Made by a program: the position numbers and the translations under genes | In this document: positions 40,469-57,089 of the stretch, piece after piece | How the letters are laid out: each line of letters begins with the position of its first letter | Position numbering within the stretch: the stretch's first letter is position 1 | Assembly (NCBI GenBank): GCA_019358835.1 | Contig: JAHHIH010000006.1 | Coordinates: 1-64,000, forward strand | Length of the DNA: 64,000 bases | Source of the DNA: Tildeniella torsiva UHER 1998/13D | GTDB lineage: Bacteria; Cyanobacteriota; Cyanobacteriia; Phormidesmidales; Phormidesmidaceae | Direction: 5' to 3' | Notes under the pieces: model-generated | Told to the model about the DNA's origin: nothing | What the model saw: the letters and a program-made list of their open reading frames with translations, nothing else | Databases searched by the model: none

Positions 40469-41491
40469 ATGTTAAGCCTGCTGGTTCTATCGTCGCTAAC
40501 GTTGTCACCGGGGAGTCTTTACCCCCTATCCCCTACCCCCGACAACGCCTCACCCTTCACCCTTGATACCCGCTACCCCAGTGCGATCGCCCAGGCACCC
40601 CTCACCAGCGACTACAGAGTAACGGCCCTACAGCCCGACTTTACCGGCGACCTCTGGGTTGGCTCCTGGGCAGGTCTCTCTCGCATTAACCCCGAGACCG
40701 GGCAGGTTCTTCAACGGGTCAGAATGCCCAGCCGCACCCTAGAATCGCTAGCCCAAGACCGGGTCGGACGCATCTGGGTAGGCACCTTTGATGGTCTGGT
40801 GCGGGTTGACCCACGTACCAACGTCATCACCGCCCAAAATTTCACCCTGCCCTCCAACCGGGTGCTGTCGCTGCTGGTAGACAGTCGCGGCTTTCTCTGG
40901 GCGGGCACCGATCGCGGCCTAGTCATGATTAGCCCCGATCGCGGCCTGCTGATGACCACCGTGCAGCGGTTGCCGGGGGTGAGCGCCAACGCCCTCGCCC
41001 TCGATGGGCGCAACAACCTCTGGGTTGGCACCCTTAGCGGTCTAGTACAGATCAACACGGCCAATGCCTTCCCCATTCGCGAAGTCGGCGACCTGCCCGG
41101 CGGCGCGGTGCAGTCGCTCACCCTCGGCCCCGAAGGCAATCTGTGGGTCGGCACGGCCAGCAGTCTCTTGGTCGTAGACCCGGTGCGGTCTGAACTGGTG
41201 CGATCGGTAGGGACAATGCGCGATCGCAACGTCCAATCCACTGAGTTTGACAGCGCTGGCAATCTTTGGGTTGGCACTACCACGGGGCTGTTTAAGATCA
41301 AGCCCGACAGCGGTGAACTGCTAGGTCAGGTGCCCTCCTTGCCCTCCGGGCGCATTCTCTCGCTGTCGCCCAATACGGGCAACAAGATTTGGGTTGGCAC
41401 CAGCGAAGGGTTGGGCTGGGTCAGCCTCACCACAGGCGAAGGTAACCCCCACTGGGGTCTGGTTAGCCCCACCGTGGTGCAGACGCGCTAG
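40469..41491 (+). CDS. Secreted two-component-regulator-type beta-propeller protein
   Basis: A 340-residue protein with six or seven repeats of about 42 residues of the form NLWVGTxxGLxxI (GDLWVGSWAGLSRI, GRIWVGTFDGLVRV, GFLWAGTDRGLVMI, NNLWVGTLSGLVQI, GNLWVGTASSLLVV, GNLWVGTTTGLFKI, NKIWVGTSEGLGWV), the reg_prop propeller seen in hybrid sensor kinases. Here it has no kinase attached. The N-terminus is hydrophobic and would export it. A GGGGAGAG ribosome site lies before ATG 40469. Probably a periplasmic binding or scaffold protein. Confidence 0.8.
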   Translation: MLSLLVLSSLTLSPGSLYPLSPTPDNASPFTLDTRYPSAIAQAPLTSDYRVTALQPDFTGDLWVGSWAGLSRINPETGQVLQRVRMPSRTLESLAQDRVGRIWVGTFDGLVRVDPRTNVITAQNFTLPSNRVLSLLVDSRGFLWAGTDRGLVMISPDRGLLMTTVQRLPGVSANALALDGRNNLWVGTLSGLVQINTANAFPIREVGDLPGGAVQSLTLGPEGNLWVGTASSLLVVDPVRSELVRSVGTMRDRNVQSTEFDSAGNLWVGTTTGLFKIKPDSGELLGQVPSLPSGRILSLSPNTGNKIWVGTSEGLGWVSLTTGEGNPHWGLVSPTVVQTR

Positions 41492-45916: not shown

Positions 45917-47293
45917 GTGTTTAAGAGTTTTCGCCCGCGATCGCCTCAGTCTCATACCGCTCAACCCAATTCAGCTCGACCAGAACGCTTGTCAGTGCTA
46001 GCCGCATGGGGAATGGCGCTGGCGATCGCGGCCCTCAGCGCCCTGCCCGCCAGCGCCCAAACCCTCAGCGAAAAGGTGCTGGCGATGGAGCAGGGGCTAG
46101 AGGAAGACTTTGCCGAATATTTTGGTGGCGAGCCGATGGCCGTCACCCAGGGGCCTAACGAAATCGCCGCTACCCTGGCCCGCATGGGAGCCGAAACCGG
46201 CACCAACCCCGCCGTCATCTGGGTGATTCCTCGGGGTGACCACCTGCATTTGGTGCTGCTGACTGCCCAGGGCCAGCCCATTGTGCGCGATCTCTACGAC
46301 GTGCCCGACGACCTCCTGCGCGCGACGGTCAACGATTTCATGATTGAGACCAGCAGCGTAGTGCCCCGGCGCAATCGTCCCGCCGCCCAAAAACTCCACG
46401 AGTGGATTATTGAGCCCTACGAAGCCGAGTTTTTAGCGGCGCAGGGCATCGACACCCTGCTGTTTTGTCTCGGTGGCGGCGTGCGCGGCGTGCCCCTGGC
46501 CGCCCTCCACGACGGCGAGCAATTCTTGATTGAGAAGTACAGCCTCACCCGAATTCCAGCCTTTAACCTGATTCAGACCGACTACACGCCCCTACGCCCC
46601 GGCAATATTCTGGCCATGGGAGCCTCAGAGTTTGACACCCAGGAGCCACTGCCAGCGGTGCCTACCGAACTCTCCAGTATTTTGTCAGAGCTGCGCGGTA
46701 CCCGGCCCGAGGGGGAGAATTGGCAGGGGCGATCGTTCCTCAACCAAGGGTTTACCTTGCCCAACCTGCGACTGTGGCTGCGGGCCCAATCGCCCACCGT
46801 GGTACACCTGGCCACCCATGCGGTGTTTGAGCCCGGCGACCCCAGCAACTCCTACATTCAGCTGTGGGATAGCCAGCTCAGCCTAGACGACATGCGCCAG
46901 ATGAACTGGAACTCGCCCTCCCTAGAGCTGCTGGTGCTGAGTGCCTGCCGCACCGCCGTAGGCGACGATGAAGCGGAGCTGGGCTTTGCGGGGCTGGCCC
47001 TGCAATCGGGGGTGAAGTCGGCCCTGGCCAGCCTGTGGAATGTGGATGACGCGGGCACTCTGGCCTTGATGAATGAGTTCTACAGCCACCTGGGGCAAAC
47101 GACTACGAAGAGCGAAGCTCTGCGCCAGGCCCAGCTCGCCATGCTGCGGGGAGAAGCCCGGTTTGAGGGTGACCAACTGCTGCTGCCGCGAGGTGCGGTA
47201 ACAGTACCGAGTGATTTACAGACCAGCGCTGGAGCCGATTTGTCCTCTCCCTACTATTGGGCTGGGTTCAGTTTGATCAGCAGCCCGTGGTAG
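45917..47293 (+). CDS. Exported CHAT-domain (caspase-like) protease-type protein
   Basis: A 458-residue protein. GTG 45917 is chosen because GAGGA lies 7 bases upstream; a TTG at 45869 is in frame but lacks a site. A signal peptide follows (LAAWGMALAIAALSALPASAQ). The CHAT domain fills the C-terminal 300 residues: LLFCLGGGVRGVPLAALHDG, the catalytic His in VVHLATHAVF, the catalytic Cys in LLVLSACRTAVGD, and SALASLWNVDDAGT. No TPR repeats, unusually simple. Followed by a DUF928 gene and a CHASE2 gene, a set often found together in cyanobacteria. An extracytoplasmic protease role is inferred. Confidence 0.85.
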   Translation: MFKSFRPRSPQSHTAQPNSARPERLSVLAAWGMALAIAALSALPASAQTLSEKVLAMEQGLEEDFAEYFGGEPMAVTQGPNEIAATLARMGAETGTNPAVIWVIPRGDHLHLVLLTAQGQPIVRDLYDVPDDLLRATVNDFMIETSSVVPRRNRPAAQKLHEWIIEPYEAEFLAAQGIDTLLFCLGGGVRGVPLAALHDGEQFLIEKYSLTRIPAFNLIQTDYTPLRPGNILAMGASEFDTQEPLPAVPTELSSILSELRGTRPEGENWQGRSFLNQGFTLPNLRLWLRAQSPTVVHLATHAVFEPGDPSNSYIQLWDSQLSLDDMRQMNWNSPSLELLVLSACRTAVGDDEAELGFAGLALQSGVKSALASLWNVDDAGTLALMNEFYSHLGQTTTKSEALRQAQLAMLRGEARFEGDQLLLPRGAVTVPSDLQTSAGADLSSPYYWAGFSLISSPW

Positions 47294-47455
47294 ATCCGAT
47301 TGGCCTGAGCCGAGCAACTTGATTGGAGCTTAATCAGCATTTACCAAAACTTAAAGCCCTCAGATCTGTCCCCGGTAAGATCACGGTTCTTTCCCCCATC
47401 AGACATTACTACCTTGAAGAAGACAGTTACTAGACTAAATCAGAGTTTTCTCACC

Positions 47456-48130
47456 ATGGGCACCGTCACTCAATCAAGATTTTTGCTGGCCCTGGCTATG
47501 GCGCTGGGACTGGCGGCATTGGTGGGTTCAGAGCCAGGGTTGGCGCAGTCTAGCGGCGGCGATCGCGGCGCATTTCCGGGCCGTCGGGTGGGGGGCGGCA
47601 CCCGTGGCAACTGTGCCATTGACAGCCGGTCTCTGGCAGCGCTAAACCCCGCCAGCAACCTGGGGGTGACCGCCAGCGATCGCCCCTCCCTTTACTTTTC
47701 GGTACCGACAGCCGCGACCCCCTACCACGGCCAGTTTATTCTCCACGATGCCGACGAAAATCGGCTGTACGAGACCACCCTGGTGGCCGGTGCTGAGCCC
47801 CTCGTTGGGGTACACCTACCTGCTAACTTGGTTAACTCCGACCAGGATTACCACTGGTACTTTGTGGTTGCCTGCAACCCCCGCGATCTCTCCCAGAATG
47901 TGGTGCTAGAGGGCTGGCTGCGCCGGGTACCCCTCACCACCGCGCCAGCCGATACGGCCCTGGTCGAAACTCAGCTCGACTTAGTCGAGACCTATCAGGC
48001 CCAAGGGCTCTGGAGTGATGCGATCGCGCTGCTGGTAGAGCTACGTCAGGCCCATCCCGACAACGCACTGGTTCAGGCTCAGTGGAATCGTCTGCTAGAA
48101 ACCCTCGATCTCGCTACTGTTGTGCAGTAA
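47456..48130 (+). CDS. DUF928 exported protein
   Basis: A 224-residue protein with signal peptide (FLLALAMALGLAALVGSEPGLAQ), a Gly-rich segment (GRRVGGGTRGNC), and the DUF928 beta-rich body (SLYFSVPTAATPYHGQFILHDADENRLYETTL, QDYHWYFVVACNPRDLSQNVVLEGWLRRV), ending in a helical hairpin. An alternative TTG start at 47414 would add 14 residues. Family function unknown, but it typically neighbours CHAT and CHASE2 genes, as here. Confidence 0.85.
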   Translation: MGTVTQSRFLLALAMALGLAALVGSEPGLAQSSGGDRGAFPGRRVGGGTRGNCAIDSRSLAALNPASNLGVTASDRPSLYFSVPTAATPYHGQFILHDADENRLYETTLVAGAEPLVGVHLPANLVNSDQDYHWYFVVACNPRDLSQNVVLEGWLRRVPLTTAPADTALVETQLDLVETYQAQGLWSDAIALLVELRQAHPDNALVQAQWNRLLETLDLATVVQ

Positions 48131-48139
48131 TCACCGGCC

Positions 48140-50716
48140 ATGGAGTTCTTTCGCCGATGGCCAATGCTCTTTCCCATACCCAATCGCCTGCGCATAGCGG
48201 GACGATCAATCCTGTTGACCAGCGTCTTAACGTCAATACTGCTGCTGGGTCTACAGTCTCTGGGCTGGCTAGAACCGCTGGAACTTAAAGTCTTTGACCA
48301 ATTTATGCAGCGGCGGGTTGACCTCGCTGCCGACAACAGACTGCTGATCGTCGGTGTCAGCGAAGCCGATCTACGCCGCTACGGCTGGCCCCTGAGTGAT
48401 CAGGTTTTGGCTGAGGGGTTGACCCAAATTCAGAAGCATGACCCACGGGTCATCGGCCTCGATCTCTACCGAGATTTAACCCATTCTCCTGGAGAACAGG
48501 CGCTAGCATCGGCGCTTCAGGCCGATAACCTAGTCGCCATCACCAACATTATTGGCGATGTTGCTGCGCCGCCAGGAGTTCCGCCGGAGCGTATTGGCTT
48601 CAATGACTTTGTCCTTGACCCAGACGGGGTGTTGAGGCGCAGCTTATTGTTTGTAGCTGGGGATGATCAGGCGTACTATTCTTTTGCTCTGCGGGTCAGC
48701 CTACGCTATCTGGCCACCGTTGGCAAAAAGTTTCGCTACGATTCCCAGGCTCTGTGGCTAGGACAAATGCCGATTTTGCCCCTGGAGACCTATCACGGGG
48801 GCTACCAGCGGGCTGACACGCGCGGCTATCAAACGCTACTGAACTATCGCAGCCGCTACAGCCCAGCTCCTACAGTGTCCTGGAGCGAGCTTATGGCAGG
48901 GCAGGTAGACCCCGATCAAATTCGCGATCGCATTGTGGTCATAGGCTCCCTCGCCCCCAGCCTCAGAGACATGCTGTACACCCCTTACAGCAACGACAAA
49001 GACATGCTGTATGCCCCCTACAGCAACGATATCGAAACCTTTAATGCCCCTGGCGTTATCATCCATGCCCACATCATCAGCCACCTGCTCGATATCGCTC
49101 AGCACCAGCGCTCGACCTTTAGCTTTTGGCCTCGATGGGGAGAGGGGCTGTGGCTATGGGGCTGGGCCATAGTCGGGGGGATTTTAGCTTGGCAGTTTGG
49201 CCATCCTTTAGGGCTTGGTCTCGGGAGTCTGACAGCCCTGGGGCTACTTTATTCTCTGGGCTGGGGGCTCTTTCTCCACACGGTTTGGATTCCGGTGTTA
49301 GAACCCTCGGTGGGGTTTTCCCTGGCCCTGGCAGTGACTATGGCCCATCGGCTCTTCTATACCTACAGCCGCGATCTGCCCACGGGGCTGCTCAATCGCC
49401 AGGCCTGGCTCAATCACCTGAATCAACACCTGTCGCCCCTGGCCGGGCGGCAGCACCTCAGCCCACCGGGCATTATGGTGGTGGGGTTTGACCGTTTTAA
49501 GCAGGTGAATGTCAGTCTGGGGCAGGCCACGGGCGATCGCTTGCTGCTGCTAATGGTTAAGCGCCTGCGACGGGTGATTCCCCGCACGGCCCAGCTGGGT
49601 CGGGTCAACGGCGATGACTTTGCCCTGGCCCTGCGGCAAAGCGATCAGGAGTTTCTGACCAATCTAGCCAATGCCATCCAGCAGGCGCTGGGAGAGCCCT
49701 TTAGCCTAAATAACCAAGACATTGCCATGACCGCCAGCATCGGGATTGTAGTACCTCAACCCCAGCAGGCTCACACCGCTGAGAACCTGCTGCGCGATGC
49801 TCAAACCGCCATGTATCGCGCCCAGCGCTCTGGCCAAACCCGCTACCAGGTGTTTGCGGCCAGCATGGCCACGGCCGCCGACCAGTTCACACTGGAAACC
49901 GAGATGCGCCACGGCATCGCCCACGAAGAGTTTGTGCTCTACTACCAGCCCATTGTTGACCTCGAAAGGGGGGATGTGGCCGGGTTTGAGGCCCTGATCC
50001 GCTGGCAGCATCCCCGCCAGGGGTTTGTGTCTCCCATGCGGTTTATTCCACTGGCAGAAGAGACGGGGCTGATTTTGCCCCTGGGCGAGTGGATCTGCCG
50101 CACTGCCTGCTGCCAGGCCCGTCAGTGGCAAGAAGATTTCCCTAACCACCCCTTGATGGTCAGCGTCAACCTATCGGGGCGACAGTTTGAACAGCCCCAT
50201 CTAGCCGACCAGCTGGGGCAAATTTTGCGGGAGACCAACCTCGACGGCCGCCGCCTCAAGCTTGAAATTACCGAGAGCATGGTCATGGGGGATGTTGAGA
50301 CCGCCATCGACCTAATGCTGGGGCTCAAAGCCCTGGGCTGCAAACTGGGGATGGACGACTTTGGCACCGGCTACTCATCGCTGAGTTACCTGCGACGATT
50401 CCCCATCGACACCCTAAAGGTCGATCAGTCTTTCATTCGCAATATGGGAGACAGCCGCGAAGACCACGAGATTGTGCGCACCATTATTGGTCTAGGCCAC
50501 ACCCTGGGGATGGACTTGATTGCCGAAGGCATTGAGACCCAGGAGCAGGCGGCAGCACTGCGATCGCTGGGCTGTGAGTTTGGCCAGGGCTACTACTGGG
50601 CCAAGCCCATGCCTGCGGCCGAGGCTTCGGCGCTGCTCAGCGCCAGCCCGCTACCGCCAGGAAGCCGAGACCTCATGCACGGAGTCGGCGATCGCCCCAT
50701 CCTCCACCAGCCTTAG
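48140..50716 (+). CDS. CHASE2 sensor with degenerate GGDEF and intact EAL domain
   Basis: An 858-residue membrane signalling protein. An N-terminal membrane helix (LTSVLTSILLLGLQSLGW) is followed by the extracytoplasmic CHASE2 domain (residues 45-320), then three membrane helices, then GGDEF (about 410-570) with RVNGDDF in place of GGDEF, and EAL (about 580-840) with E617-A-L, KLEITESM, DDFGTGYSSLSYL, LKVDQSFI and AEGIETQEQ all kept. So it is probably a cyclic-di-GMP phosphodiesterase, with the GGDEF domain regulatory. A 33-bp unit is duplicated at 48968-49033 within CHASE2. It lies 9 bases after the DUF928 gene, so it is cotranscribed. Its 3' end overlaps the MFS gene. Confidence 0.9.
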   Translation: MEFFRRWPMLFPIPNRLRIAGRSILLTSVLTSILLLGLQSLGWLEPLELKVFDQFMQRRVDLAADNRLLIVGVSEADLRRYGWPLSDQVLAEGLTQIQKHDPRVIGLDLYRDLTHSPGEQALASALQADNLVAITNIIGDVAAPPGVPPERIGFNDFVLDPDGVLRRSLLFVAGDDQAYYSFALRVSLRYLATVGKKFRYDSQALWLGQMPILPLETYHGGYQRADTRGYQTLLNYRSRYSPAPTVSWSELMAGQVDPDQIRDRIVVIGSLAPSLRDMLYTPYSNDKDMLYAPYSNDIETFNAPGVIIHAHIISHLLDIAQHQRSTFSFWPRWGEGLWLWGWAIVGGILAWQFGHPLGLGLGSLTALGLLYSLGWGLFLHTVWIPVLEPSVGFSLALAVTMAHRLFYTYSRDLPTGLLNRQAWLNHLNQHLSPLAGRQHLSPPGIMVVGFDRFKQVNVSLGQATGDRLLLLMVKRLRRVIPRTAQLGRVNGDDFALALRQSDQEFLTNLANAIQQALGEPFSLNNQDIAMTASIGIVVPQPQQAHTAENLLRDAQTAMYRAQRSGQTRYQVFAASMATAADQFTLETEMRHGIAHEEFVLYYQPIVDLERGDVAGFEALIRWQHPRQGFVSPMRFIPLAEETGLILPLGEWICRTACCQARQWQEDFPNHPLMVSVNLSGRQFEQPHLADQLGQILRETNLDGRRLKLEITESMVMGDVETAIDLMLGLKALGCKLGMDDFGTGYSSLSYLRRFPIDTLKVDQSFIRNMGDSREDHEIVRTIIGLGHTLGMDLIAEGIETQEQAAALRSLGCEFGQGYYWAKPMPAAEASALLSASPLPPGSRDLMHGVGDRPILHQP

Positions 50717-54983: not shown

Positions 54984-57089
54984 ATGACCGCCTTTCCCTC
55001 CGATGCTCGTTTGCCCAACGGTCCCCGCAGCAATTTTCGAGGAGAAATCTTGCAGCGCGGCGGCGAAGAGCTGCTGCTCGAAAAAGTGCCCGCCCGCTTC
55101 ACCACTCGGCTCACGGCAGCTTCGGCCTTAGCACCACTGCAACAGCGCCTGAATCCTCTTGCTGTGCGCCCAGTGGCCGGAGGGCAGCTGGTAGAGTGGC
55201 AGATGGCCGAAAACAGTTTGGAAGCAGCGCTAACCACGGCCCGCCAAGACCCGACGGTGCGCTTTGCCAGTCACGTTTACCGCTTGGTCGATAGCCCTCA
55301 AACCTGGGTCTATCTCACCGCCCAGCTCACGGTGCAGTTTGCCCCCGACACGACCAAGGACACAATTGACGCTCTTCTGGGAAGCCTGGGCATTGCCATC
55401 GAAAACCCGCTAGAGGGCATGCCCAAAACCTTTGTGGTGCGGGTTACCCCAGCGGCGATCGAAAATCCGATCAAAATTGCCAACCGACTGATGGCCCTGG
55501 AGATGGTGCTGGCGGCAGAACCTAATTTGGCCATCGAAACCGGCAGCCTCTACCGCCCCACGGACGATCGCTATCCCCAGCAGTGGCACCTGTTTCACAA
55601 CGGTGGCCCCAGCTTAGTGCCAGGGTCGCACATTTCAGCGGAAGCGGCTTGGGATATTACCCGAGGATCTAGGTCGGTGGTGATTGCCGTCAGCGACGAC
55701 GGGTTTGACCTCAACCATCCCGATCTCCAGGGGATGGGCAAGCTGGTGGCACCGTTAGATCTGCGCGATAAAGACGCCCTGCCCCTGCCCGCCAAGCAGG
55801 ATGAAAACCACGGCACCGCTGTCGCCGGGCTGGCCATTGGCGAAGAAAATACCACGGGCATCGTCGGAGTGGCTCCCGGCTGTGCCTTTTTACCGATTCG
55901 CACCACCGGCTTTATCGACGACGGGGCGATCGAGCAGCTGTTTGACGAGGCGGTGCGCCGGGGAGCCGCCGTGATCGTCTGTAGCTGGTCACCGGCGGCG
56001 AACTACTTTCCCCTTACCCTGCGGCAGACCAATGCGCTGACCCGAGCCGCCACCACCGGGCGCAACGGCAAAGGCTGCGTCATTGTCTTTTCAGCGGGCA
56101 ACGCCAACCGCCCCGTCAGCGGCACCATCAACGAAACCCAGTGGCCCAAAAACGCGCTCAGCGGCCCCACCCGGTGGCTGAGCGGGTTTGCCATTCACCC
56201 CGATGTGATAGCGGTGTCGGCCTCGACCAGTCTGGGCACCAAGGCCGCCTATAGCAACTGGGGCGAACACATCGCCGTGGCGGCCCCCAGCAATAACGCG
56301 CCGCCCAATATGGCTCTGCCCCAGGTGGGTAATGTGCCCACTGGACCGCCGCTGACCCAGTACCAGCCGGGGCGGGGGATGGTGACGAGCGATCGCACCC
56401 AGGCCGCAGGCTACTCCGGCGAAGACTACACCAACACCTTTGGCGGCACCTCTAGCTCCTGCCCGGTGGTGGCGGGGGTGGCGGGGCTGATGCTCTCGGT
56501 TAACCCCAGCCTGACGGCCCGGCAGGTGCGCGAAATTTTGCAGGCCACCGCCGACAAAATTGTCGATCGCACCCCCGACCCCCAGCTCGGCCTTCAACAC
56601 GGCACCTACAACGCCAGTGGCCACTCCCAGTGGTTTGGCTACGGCAAGGTCGATGCGGCGGCGGCGGTGCGCGAGGCCCAGCGGCGGGCCTTTGTGGGGC
56701 GACAGCTAGGGCGGGTAGTGCAGCAGCAAAACCAGGCTGCCCAGGGCATACCCGACAATCGACCGGGTGGAGTAGAGAGCAACGTGGCTGTGGCTACCAC
56801 CGGCATCGTCACCGACGTGCAGGTCGAGGTCAGCCTTGACCATCCGTTTTTGGGAGACATCAGCCTGACCCTGATTGCCCCCAACGGCACTACAGTCCTT
56901 ATTCAGGGCCGCACTTTAGGACGCCAAACAGAACTGCGCACCACCTACACGCTGCAAACAACGCCTGTGCTATTACGGCTTTTAGGCCAGCCAGCCCAAG
57001 GATCTTGGCGTCTGCGGGCGATAGATCATGTTCCCGGTGCAACGGGCCAGCTTTTGATCTGGGGACTGACACTGGGGGTGAGTGGGTAA
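54984..57089 (+). CDS. Subtilisin-like serine protease (S8) with C-terminal P-like domain
   Basis: A 701-residue protease. The catalytic Asp is in VVIAVSDDGFDLNHPDLQG (about residue 240), the His in DENHGTAVAGLAIG (about 275), and the Ser in GGTSSSCPVVAGVAG (about 495). The region before the protease (residues 1-200) is a propeptide-like alpha/beta part. The C-terminus (VAVATTGIVTDVQVEVSLDHPFLGDISLTLIAPNGT) fits the proprotein-convertase P domain. No signal peptide is visible, so secretion route or intracellular role is unclear. Confidence 0.9.
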   Translation: MTAFPSDARLPNGPRSNFRGEILQRGGEELLLEKVPARFTTRLTAASALAPLQQRLNPLAVRPVAGGQLVEWQMAENSLEAALTTARQDPTVRFASHVYRLVDSPQTWVYLTAQLTVQFAPDTTKDTIDALLGSLGIAIENPLEGMPKTFVVRVTPAAIENPIKIANRLMALEMVLAAEPNLAIETGSLYRPTDDRYPQQWHLFHNGGPSLVPGSHISAEAAWDITRGSRSVVIAVSDDGFDLNHPDLQGMGKLVAPLDLRDKDALPLPAKQDENHGTAVAGLAIGEENTTGIVGVAPGCAFLPIRTTGFIDDGAIEQLFDEAVRRGAAVIVCSWSPAANYFPLTLRQTNALTRAATTGRNGKGCVIVFSAGNANRPVSGTINETQWPKNALSGPTRWLSGFAIHPDVIAVSASTSLGTKAAYSNWGEHIAVAAPSNNAPPNMALPQVGNVPTGPPLTQYQPGRGMVTSDRTQAAGYSGEDYTNTFGGTSSSCPVVAGVAGLMLSVNPSLTARQVREILQATADKIVDRTPDPQLGLQHGTYNASGHSQWFGYGKVDAAAAVREAQRRAFVGRQLGRVVQQQNQAAQGIPDNRPGGVESNVAVATTGIVTDVQVEVSLDHPFLGDISLTLIAPNGTTVLIQGRTLGRQTELRTTYTLQTTPVLLRLLGQPAQGSWRLRAIDHVPGATGQLLIWGLTLGVSG

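Follow-up and report, generated by a model that had tools for sequence, protein, structure and literature searches.

The triad and its proteins

We analyzed a window of 64,000 nucleotides from the filamentous cyanobacterium Tildeniella torsiva UHER 1998/13D (GenBank assembly GCA_019358835.1, contig JAHHIH010000006.1, positions 1 to 64,000, forward strand) and describe here three of its genes, which encode a CHAT protein, a DUF928 protein, and a membrane protein with CHASE2, GGDEF, and EAL domains. A Pfam profile search of the window's open reading frames (ORFs) places them in that order, all on the + strand. The CHAT protein (45917..47293; 458 amino acids, GTG start) matches PF12770 with E=1.2e-64 and 219 bits (curated cutoff, 24), and the DUF928 protein (47456..48130, in a frame open from TTG 47414) matches PF06051 with E=3e-43 and 148.2 bits (curated cutoff, 26). 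The third protein (48140..50716; 858 amino acids) matches PF05226 for CHASE2 (E=2.1e-65; 221.3 bits against a curated cutoff of 26.3), PF00990 for GGDEF (E=4.1e-30), and PF00563 for EAL (E=6.6e-80). An earlier note, made from the letters alone, had seen here an exported caspase-like CHAT protein, an exported DUF928 protein, and a CHASE2/EAL protein encoded head to tail, the last two genes 9 bases apart. Coordinates and Pfam matches bear out this arrangement and all the named domains, and they add the GGDEF domain that had been overlooked.

The spacer from the DUF928 stop to the CHASE2 start (48131..48139, + strand) is 9 bases long and in frame. Its length is constant in all six genomes compared, those of the window and five relatives, while its letters vary. 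Programmed readthrough from DUF928 into CHASE2 was set aside as unsupported, because the DUF928 stop is either TAA or TAG and the 9 spacer bases are not kept. The DUF928 start is more likely ATG 47456, which matches the starts of three relatives and is alignable in most, than TTG 47414, and the gap between CHAT and DUF928 is therefore about 160 bases. Given these two gaps, a single operon is likely for DUF928 and CHASE2 but unproven for CHAT, so that the three-gene operon proposed earlier is upheld in part. A promoter and terminator scan gave no more sites than shuffled sequence, their number lying within the shuffle spread, and intergenic alignment of the orthologs revealed no clear promoter or terminator by eye. 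Most orthologs partly conserve the stretch between CHAT and DUF928 (47294-47455), which could contain a promoter or a leader.

The CHAT protein has a signal-peptide-like N terminus (45917..46057, + strand), with positive residues, a hydrophobic core, and ASA before QT, and is apparently exported; this call, like that for DUF928, was made by hydropathy and inspection. Codons for a putative catalytic His in VVHLATHA (46817..46819, + strand) and a putative catalytic Cys in LVLSACRT (46946..46948, + strand), which we take to be the catalytic pair of CHAT, are invariant in six of six aligned sequences. No second Pfam family was found at E 0.01 or better, and no TPR repeats were recognized.

DUF928 is, as its name says, a domain of unknown function. 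The window protein likewise has a signal-peptide-like N terminus, appears to be exported, and gives a weak C-terminal Pfam match to TPR. Its predicted structure, built from a six-sequence input, is a beta sandwich followed by three helices (pLDDT 67, pTM 0.63). The top Foldseek rows were a phage baseplate protein, the Nir2 C-terminal domain, and Amuc_1438, followed by rows that include FN3 and Ig-like domains, at TM-scores over the query below 0.4; in VIA-align, FN3 and Ig-like rows reached a modest Z of about 8. The model thus offers modest indications of an Ig/FN3-like sandwich with C-terminal TPR-like helices. A match to the C-terminal domain of MtxA (Z 8.8, rmsd 5.0 over 146 residues) was taken only as a lead, because it scored no higher than unrelated rows. 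Residues C67 and C154 (numbered from the TTG start) are at least 90% conserved in 24 aligned sequences and could form a disulfide.

CHASE2 proteins typically have one helix ahead of the sensor part and three after it. By hydropathy, the window protein has hydrophobic segments at residues 24-42 and 343-402, corresponding to one N-terminal and three C-terminal segments, but their number and places differ among orthologs. A 33-base tandem duplication near the end of the ectodomain (48967-49029) adds 11 residues; four of five orthologs lack them, and the other has three residues at this place. The GGDEF motif (49607..49621, + strand) reads NGDDF, departing from the GG(D/E)EF of active diguanylate cyclases, and is degenerate in all seven genomes that carry the triad (NGDDF, NGDDL, SSDDL, SGDDF, NSDDF, or NCEDF); the domain is probably regulatory. 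The EAL motif (49988..49996, + strand) is kept in all seven copies together with the DDFGTG, KVDQSF, and AEGIE signatures, and the domain looks active as a phosphodiesterase. Sequence searches of the PDB returned no homologue of the window CHAT, DUF928, or CHASE2 part.

Clustering across cyanobacteria

DUF928 was present in 37 of 117 genomes sampled across the phylum and in 45 of 57 relatives, with up to 20 copies per genome. The neighborhood count covered 80 stretches around DUF928 genes of 60 genomes, usually about 14.5 kb long and shorter at contig ends. These loci were hand-picked rather than random, being mostly high-scoring DUF928 places with several per genome, and many listed places were left out. 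They were scanned with profiles grown from the window proteins, of which the CHAT profile detected free CHATs only, and were compared with a density null derived from each genome's own numbers of CHASE2 and CHAT genes. CHASE2 lay within about 7 kb of DUF928 in 64 of the 80 loci (1.7 expected), a free CHAT in 33 (3.0 expected, an excess of about 11-fold), and both together in 30 (0.07 expected). Chance clustering of the three genes is rejected by this null, and the association claimed in the earlier note, which had named a lack of co-occurrence beyond chance as a refuting outcome, is strongly supported.

The CHAT expectation is biased in two directions: it is too high in that genome counts include fused CHATs while the local count is of free ones, and too low in that, in 10 of 61 genomes, 32 of a larger number of candidates were scored. 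Doubling it still leaves 33 loci against 6. With a single locus per genome, CHASE2 was found in 48 of 60, CHAT in 25, and both in 22; outside the window's genus, the counts were 34 (CHASE2) and 15 (CHAT) of 46 genomes.

Spacing separates the members further. DUF928 and CHASE2 are at most 600 bases apart in 59 loci, on the same strand in 54 of these and with a gap of less than 50 bases in 33, whereas CHAT lies within 600 bases of DUF928 in 23 loci, 17 on the same strand and six on the opposite one. DUF928 and CHASE2 therefore look like an operonic core and CHAT like a frequent, optional third member; with a free CHAT in only 33 of the 80 loci, CHAT is not a constant component.

The CHAT proteins themselves vary. 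Unlike that of the window, 25 of the 33 free CHAT ORFs in these loci carry TPR repeats (22) or a two-partner-secretion (TPS) domain (4), one having both. A simple pattern detected the His and Cys in 27 of 34 CHATs scanned, window included, and the other seven, some of them fragments, miss one of the two. A hydrophobic segment begins within the first 45 residues in 23 of the same 34, and because of these segments and the TPS domains, the CHAT proteins of other loci are probably extracytoplasmic or secreted.

Paired evolution and diverse outputs

Pairwise distances among 59 paired DUF928 and CHASE2 sequences correlate with r 0.74, the highest of 2000 permutations being 0.15, and the two members of a pair seem to share a long common inheritance. 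Their outputs are diverse. Among 67 CHASE2 ORFs in the loci, 22 have an N-terminal CHAT-like part, 14 a GGDEF or GGDEF-EAL output, 13 a nucleotide cyclase, and 4 a histidine kinase, and 14 have no recognized output, some of these being fragments or cut at contig ends. Cyclic di-GMP (c-di-GMP), which the earlier note took as the output of the set, is thus just one of several. Of the 14 c-di-GMP proteins, two lack EAL and have a GGDEF domain only, with the motif GGEEF, so that the sign of the effect on c-di-GMP may differ between loci. In CHAT-CHASE2 fusions with at least 300 amino acids ahead of CHASE2, the His and Cys patterns are kept in 19 of 19. Output type requires 10 changes on either tree of the 59 pairs, against about 33 with shuffled labels.

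Distribution and selection in the genus

A search for named DUF928 loci gave the locus in five relatives only, all close: two Nodosilinea, one filed as Leptolyngbya, and two filed as filamentous cyanobacterium. Within the genus, all three orthologs occur in the same 7 of 26 genomes, with identities of at least 83% (CHAT), 80% (DUF928), and 72% (CHASE2 part), and the other 19 have none, their best matches reaching at most 48%, 38%, and 46%, respectively; six of the 26 genomes are less than 90% complete or more than 5% contaminated. A tree of the flanking RNase gene covered 24 of the 26, leaving out one genome that gave no match and another in which the gene is split. On it, presence of the triad requires six changes, every one of them imposed by branches with good support, and shows no clustering beyond that of shuffled labels. 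At 17 triad-free sites that were fetched, the RNase and MFS genes adjoin in five; in the remainder, different genes follow or the contig ends. The RNase II gene at G137:C9:5984-8022 matched as two separate pieces, through either sequencing error or decay.

All three genes are under purifying selection. Over six genomes, dN/dS was 0.085 for CHAT, 0.112 for DUF928, 0.124 for the CHASE2 part, 0.174 for GGDEF, 0.066 for EAL, and 0.058 for the RNase, values that are partly saturated at a dS of about 0.8 to 1.1.

Surface-protein and other neighbors

TPS exoprotein domains occur in 18 of the 80 loci (1.5 expected) and ShlB transporters in 12, so that 26 have one or the other. Between two and five TPS matches were found in each of five triad genomes, and none in the other two, those of the window and G136. 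The window genome (5.8 Mb in 48 contigs, with 1 DUF928, 6 CHASE2, and 7 CHAT genes) gave no TPS exoprotein match in a genome-wide profile search, ShlB not having been sought genome-wide there. A TPS protein is therefore probably not the partner in this organism, and a TPS adhesin was set aside as its substrate. Elsewhere, a CHAT-TPS fusion lies between DUF928 and CHASE2-GGDEF-EAL (L063:7641-10118, + strand), a caspase-like protein that is apparently TPS exported.

DUF1822 accompanies the N-terminal CHAT-CHASE2 proteins in 18 of 22 such loci, and all 18 DUF1822 loci hold such a protein. Strings of DUF1822, CHAT-CHASE2, and DUF928 occur at L079, L087, L103, L115, L118, and others. Among the window ORFs, there was no DUF1822, TPS, or ShlB match, the DUF1822 search covering ORFs of at least 80 amino acids with a profile grown from one locus. 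A few genes downstream of the triad, the window also encodes a subtilase (S8) that carries a proprotein convertase P-domain (54984-57089) and, at 40469-41491, there is a 340-amino-acid protein of Reg_prop propeller repeats with no kinase attached and an N terminus that looks hydrophobic.

Discussion

We propose, with a probability of roughly 0.45, that the locus represents a reduced version, linked to c-di-GMP, of a cyanobacterial cassette for outside-in sensing of the envelope. DUF928 would be an exported, dedicated extracytoplasmic partner of the CHASE2 receptor encoded by the next gene. The exported CHAT cysteine protease would act upstream of them and create, release, or remove what DUF928 and CHASE2 recognize, possibly a peptide, an envelope protein, or DUF928 itself. 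CHASE2 would relay this state through its transmembrane part to an interchangeable output, which in the window would be a degenerate, probably regulatory GGDEF domain and a motif-intact EAL domain that lowers c-di-GMP. We infer that CHAT edits the signal and that DUF928 makes direct contact with CHASE2 or with the ligand of CHASE2; export, the activity and substrate of CHAT, the inward direction, and the sign of the effect are read in the same way. The direction is favored because the recognized outputs are mostly signaling enzymes coupled to one recurrent exported partner. The envelope-sensing role suggested in the earlier note fits apparently exported CHAT and DUF928 proteins beside a membrane sensor with such outputs, while its idea that CHAT cleaves something whose product reaches CHASE2 is unsupported. 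The existence of related units with differing outputs across cyanobacteria suggests a widespread, unstudied form of cell-surface reporting.

Several observations weigh against this proposal. No CHASE2 was present in the fetched stretch at 16 of the 80 DUF928 loci, and no free CHAT at 47, so CHAT is not essential to the module. In the window genome, five of the six CHASE2 genes have no DUF928 neighbor. Correlated trees are partly expected for linked genes, and since DUF928 and CHASE2 are neighbors, linkage explains part of their distance correlation. When only branches with good support are counted, no more than one or two changes are forced for each output type, which makes repeated output swapping likely rather than proven. 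Three adjacent genes can be gained or lost together in a single block event; because block deletion or recombination can explain the joint changes, the genus pattern supports a unit without proving interaction. Finally, the DUF928 model is of moderate quality (pLDDT 67), and that of CHASE2 was discarded at pLDDT 41.

The main skeptical rival, which we consider somewhat unlikely, is that DUF928 and CHASE2-EAL are a working two-gene sensor and CHAT a neighbor with its own job in surface processing or envelope stress. The 9-base spacing of the pair, against about 160 bases after CHAT, speaks for this, as do the limited occurrence of free CHAT (33 of 80 loci) and the six opposite-strand cases among the 23 close ones. 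Against it, CHAT remains about 11 times over expectation, shares the presence and absence of the pair across the genus, and shows, among the three genes, the lowest dN/dS taken over the whole gene.

A bolder extension of the sensing proposal, and an unlikely one, is that cyanobacteria use a family of protease-gated surface receptors. Exported CHAT would cleave a surface or self-secreted protein, which in many strains may be a TPS exoprotein and, where none was found, as in the window, another envelope protein. DUF928 would capture the cleavage product and present it to CHASE2, and each copy would feed a pathway of its own, be it c-di-GMP, a cyclic nucleotide, a phosphorelay, or a cytoplasmic CHAT. 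If true, bacteria would have here a counterpart of protease-activated receptors, one genome holding as many as 20 copies of DUF928.

The main mechanistic rival, quite unlikely in our judgment, runs inside out in the manner of LapD and LapG: c-di-GMP bound by GGDEF or EAL would change the CHASE2 ectodomain and, via DUF928, switch the exported CHAT to cut a surface protein. The presence of an apparently exported, caspase-like protein next to a transmembrane GGDEF-EAL protein speaks for this rival, as do the excess of TPS domains near DUF928, the 26 loci with TPS or ShlB, the four CHATs with a TPS domain among 33, and the TPS matches in five of seven triad genomes. However, the EAL signatures are intact, unlike those of LapD, cyclases and kinases serve as outputs at other loci, the triad is present without a TPS match in the window genome and in G136, and the GGDEF-EAL protein scores 133.7 bits against the cutoff of 1020 for the NCBIfam LapD equivalog. 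A cell death or immunity circuit, with CHAT as an executioner-type protease and CHASE2 as its trigger or brake, is highly improbable, because although the N-terminal CHAT-CHASE2 proteins with DUF1822 resemble by description the systems in the available part of PMC8195603, the window CHAT looks exported, the window ORFs gave no DUF1822, TPS, or ShlB match, and PADLOC gave only a weak partial match to BovA (28 bits).

The clustering ties CHAT, DUF928, and CHASE2 together and leads us to propose that many CHASE2 receptors have in DUF928 their missing extracytoplasmic partner. The available part of PMC10581220 states that CHASE2 ligands are unknown; with DUF928 as a partner, the ligand question becomes testable with two small soluble proteins. 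The sensing proposal would also link caspase-like proteins to second-messenger signaling at the cyanobacterial surface.

Relation to known systems

The features of LapD and LapG used for comparison are general background. Like LapD/LapG and BpfD/BpfG of gammaproteobacteria (for BpfD/BpfG, the available part of PMC4523816), the window pairs a membrane GGDEF-EAL protein bearing an extracytoplasmic domain with a nearby, apparently exported putative cysteine protease, and there is a further likeness in the link to surface proteins. It differs in that the putative protease is a CHAT protein rather than a LapG family member, CHAT being all that Pfam lists for it, that CHASE2 replaces the periplasmic domain of LapD, and that the EAL motifs are intact. 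The cassette also adds a DUF928 partner, and its relatives have other outputs.

The earlier note held the function of such sets to be undescribed, and we found no description of the cassette in the open-access literature, including under combinations with CHASE2, TPS, and DUF1822. No paper there had DUF928 together with the CHAT domain; PMC5587647 was the sole one naming DUF928, and its available part mentions a CHASE2-DUF928 neighborhood in one Nostoc genome and reports that Synechocystis Sll1891 responds to acid stress. For exported CHAT proteins, the searches, none of which was aimed at them alone, brought up no study. A term search of the available part of the c-di-GMP sensor census PMC8846402 found no mention of CHASE2.

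Other relatives share single parts. Dgc2 of Leptolyngbya boryana, which suppresses motility and biofilm formation (PMC10581220), and Alr1219 of Anabaena (PMC13075795) are, in the available parts of these papers, likewise membrane CHASE2 proteins that act on c-di-GMP. Both are diguanylate cyclases, however, whereas the window EAL looks active and its GGDEF is degenerate; the terms DUF928 and CHAT are absent from the Dgc2 paper. HetF of Anabaena (available part of PMC8406250) also has a CHAT domain and is a putative protease with an active site required in vivo, but it belongs to the divisome and combines CHAT, transmembrane, and TPR parts, whereas the window CHAT is small and apparently exported.

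As far as its available part goes, PMC8195603 describes caspase systems with a variable C terminus such as CHASE2, an ECF sigma factor, or DUF1822, which likewise combine a caspase-like domain and CHASE2 in one system; the term DUF928 is absent from the paper. Relatives of the cassette hold N-terminal CHAT-CHASE2 proteins with DUF1822, as those systems do. The window locus differs in that its CHAT is a separate, apparently exported protein, that no DUF1822 was found, and that DUF928 is present.

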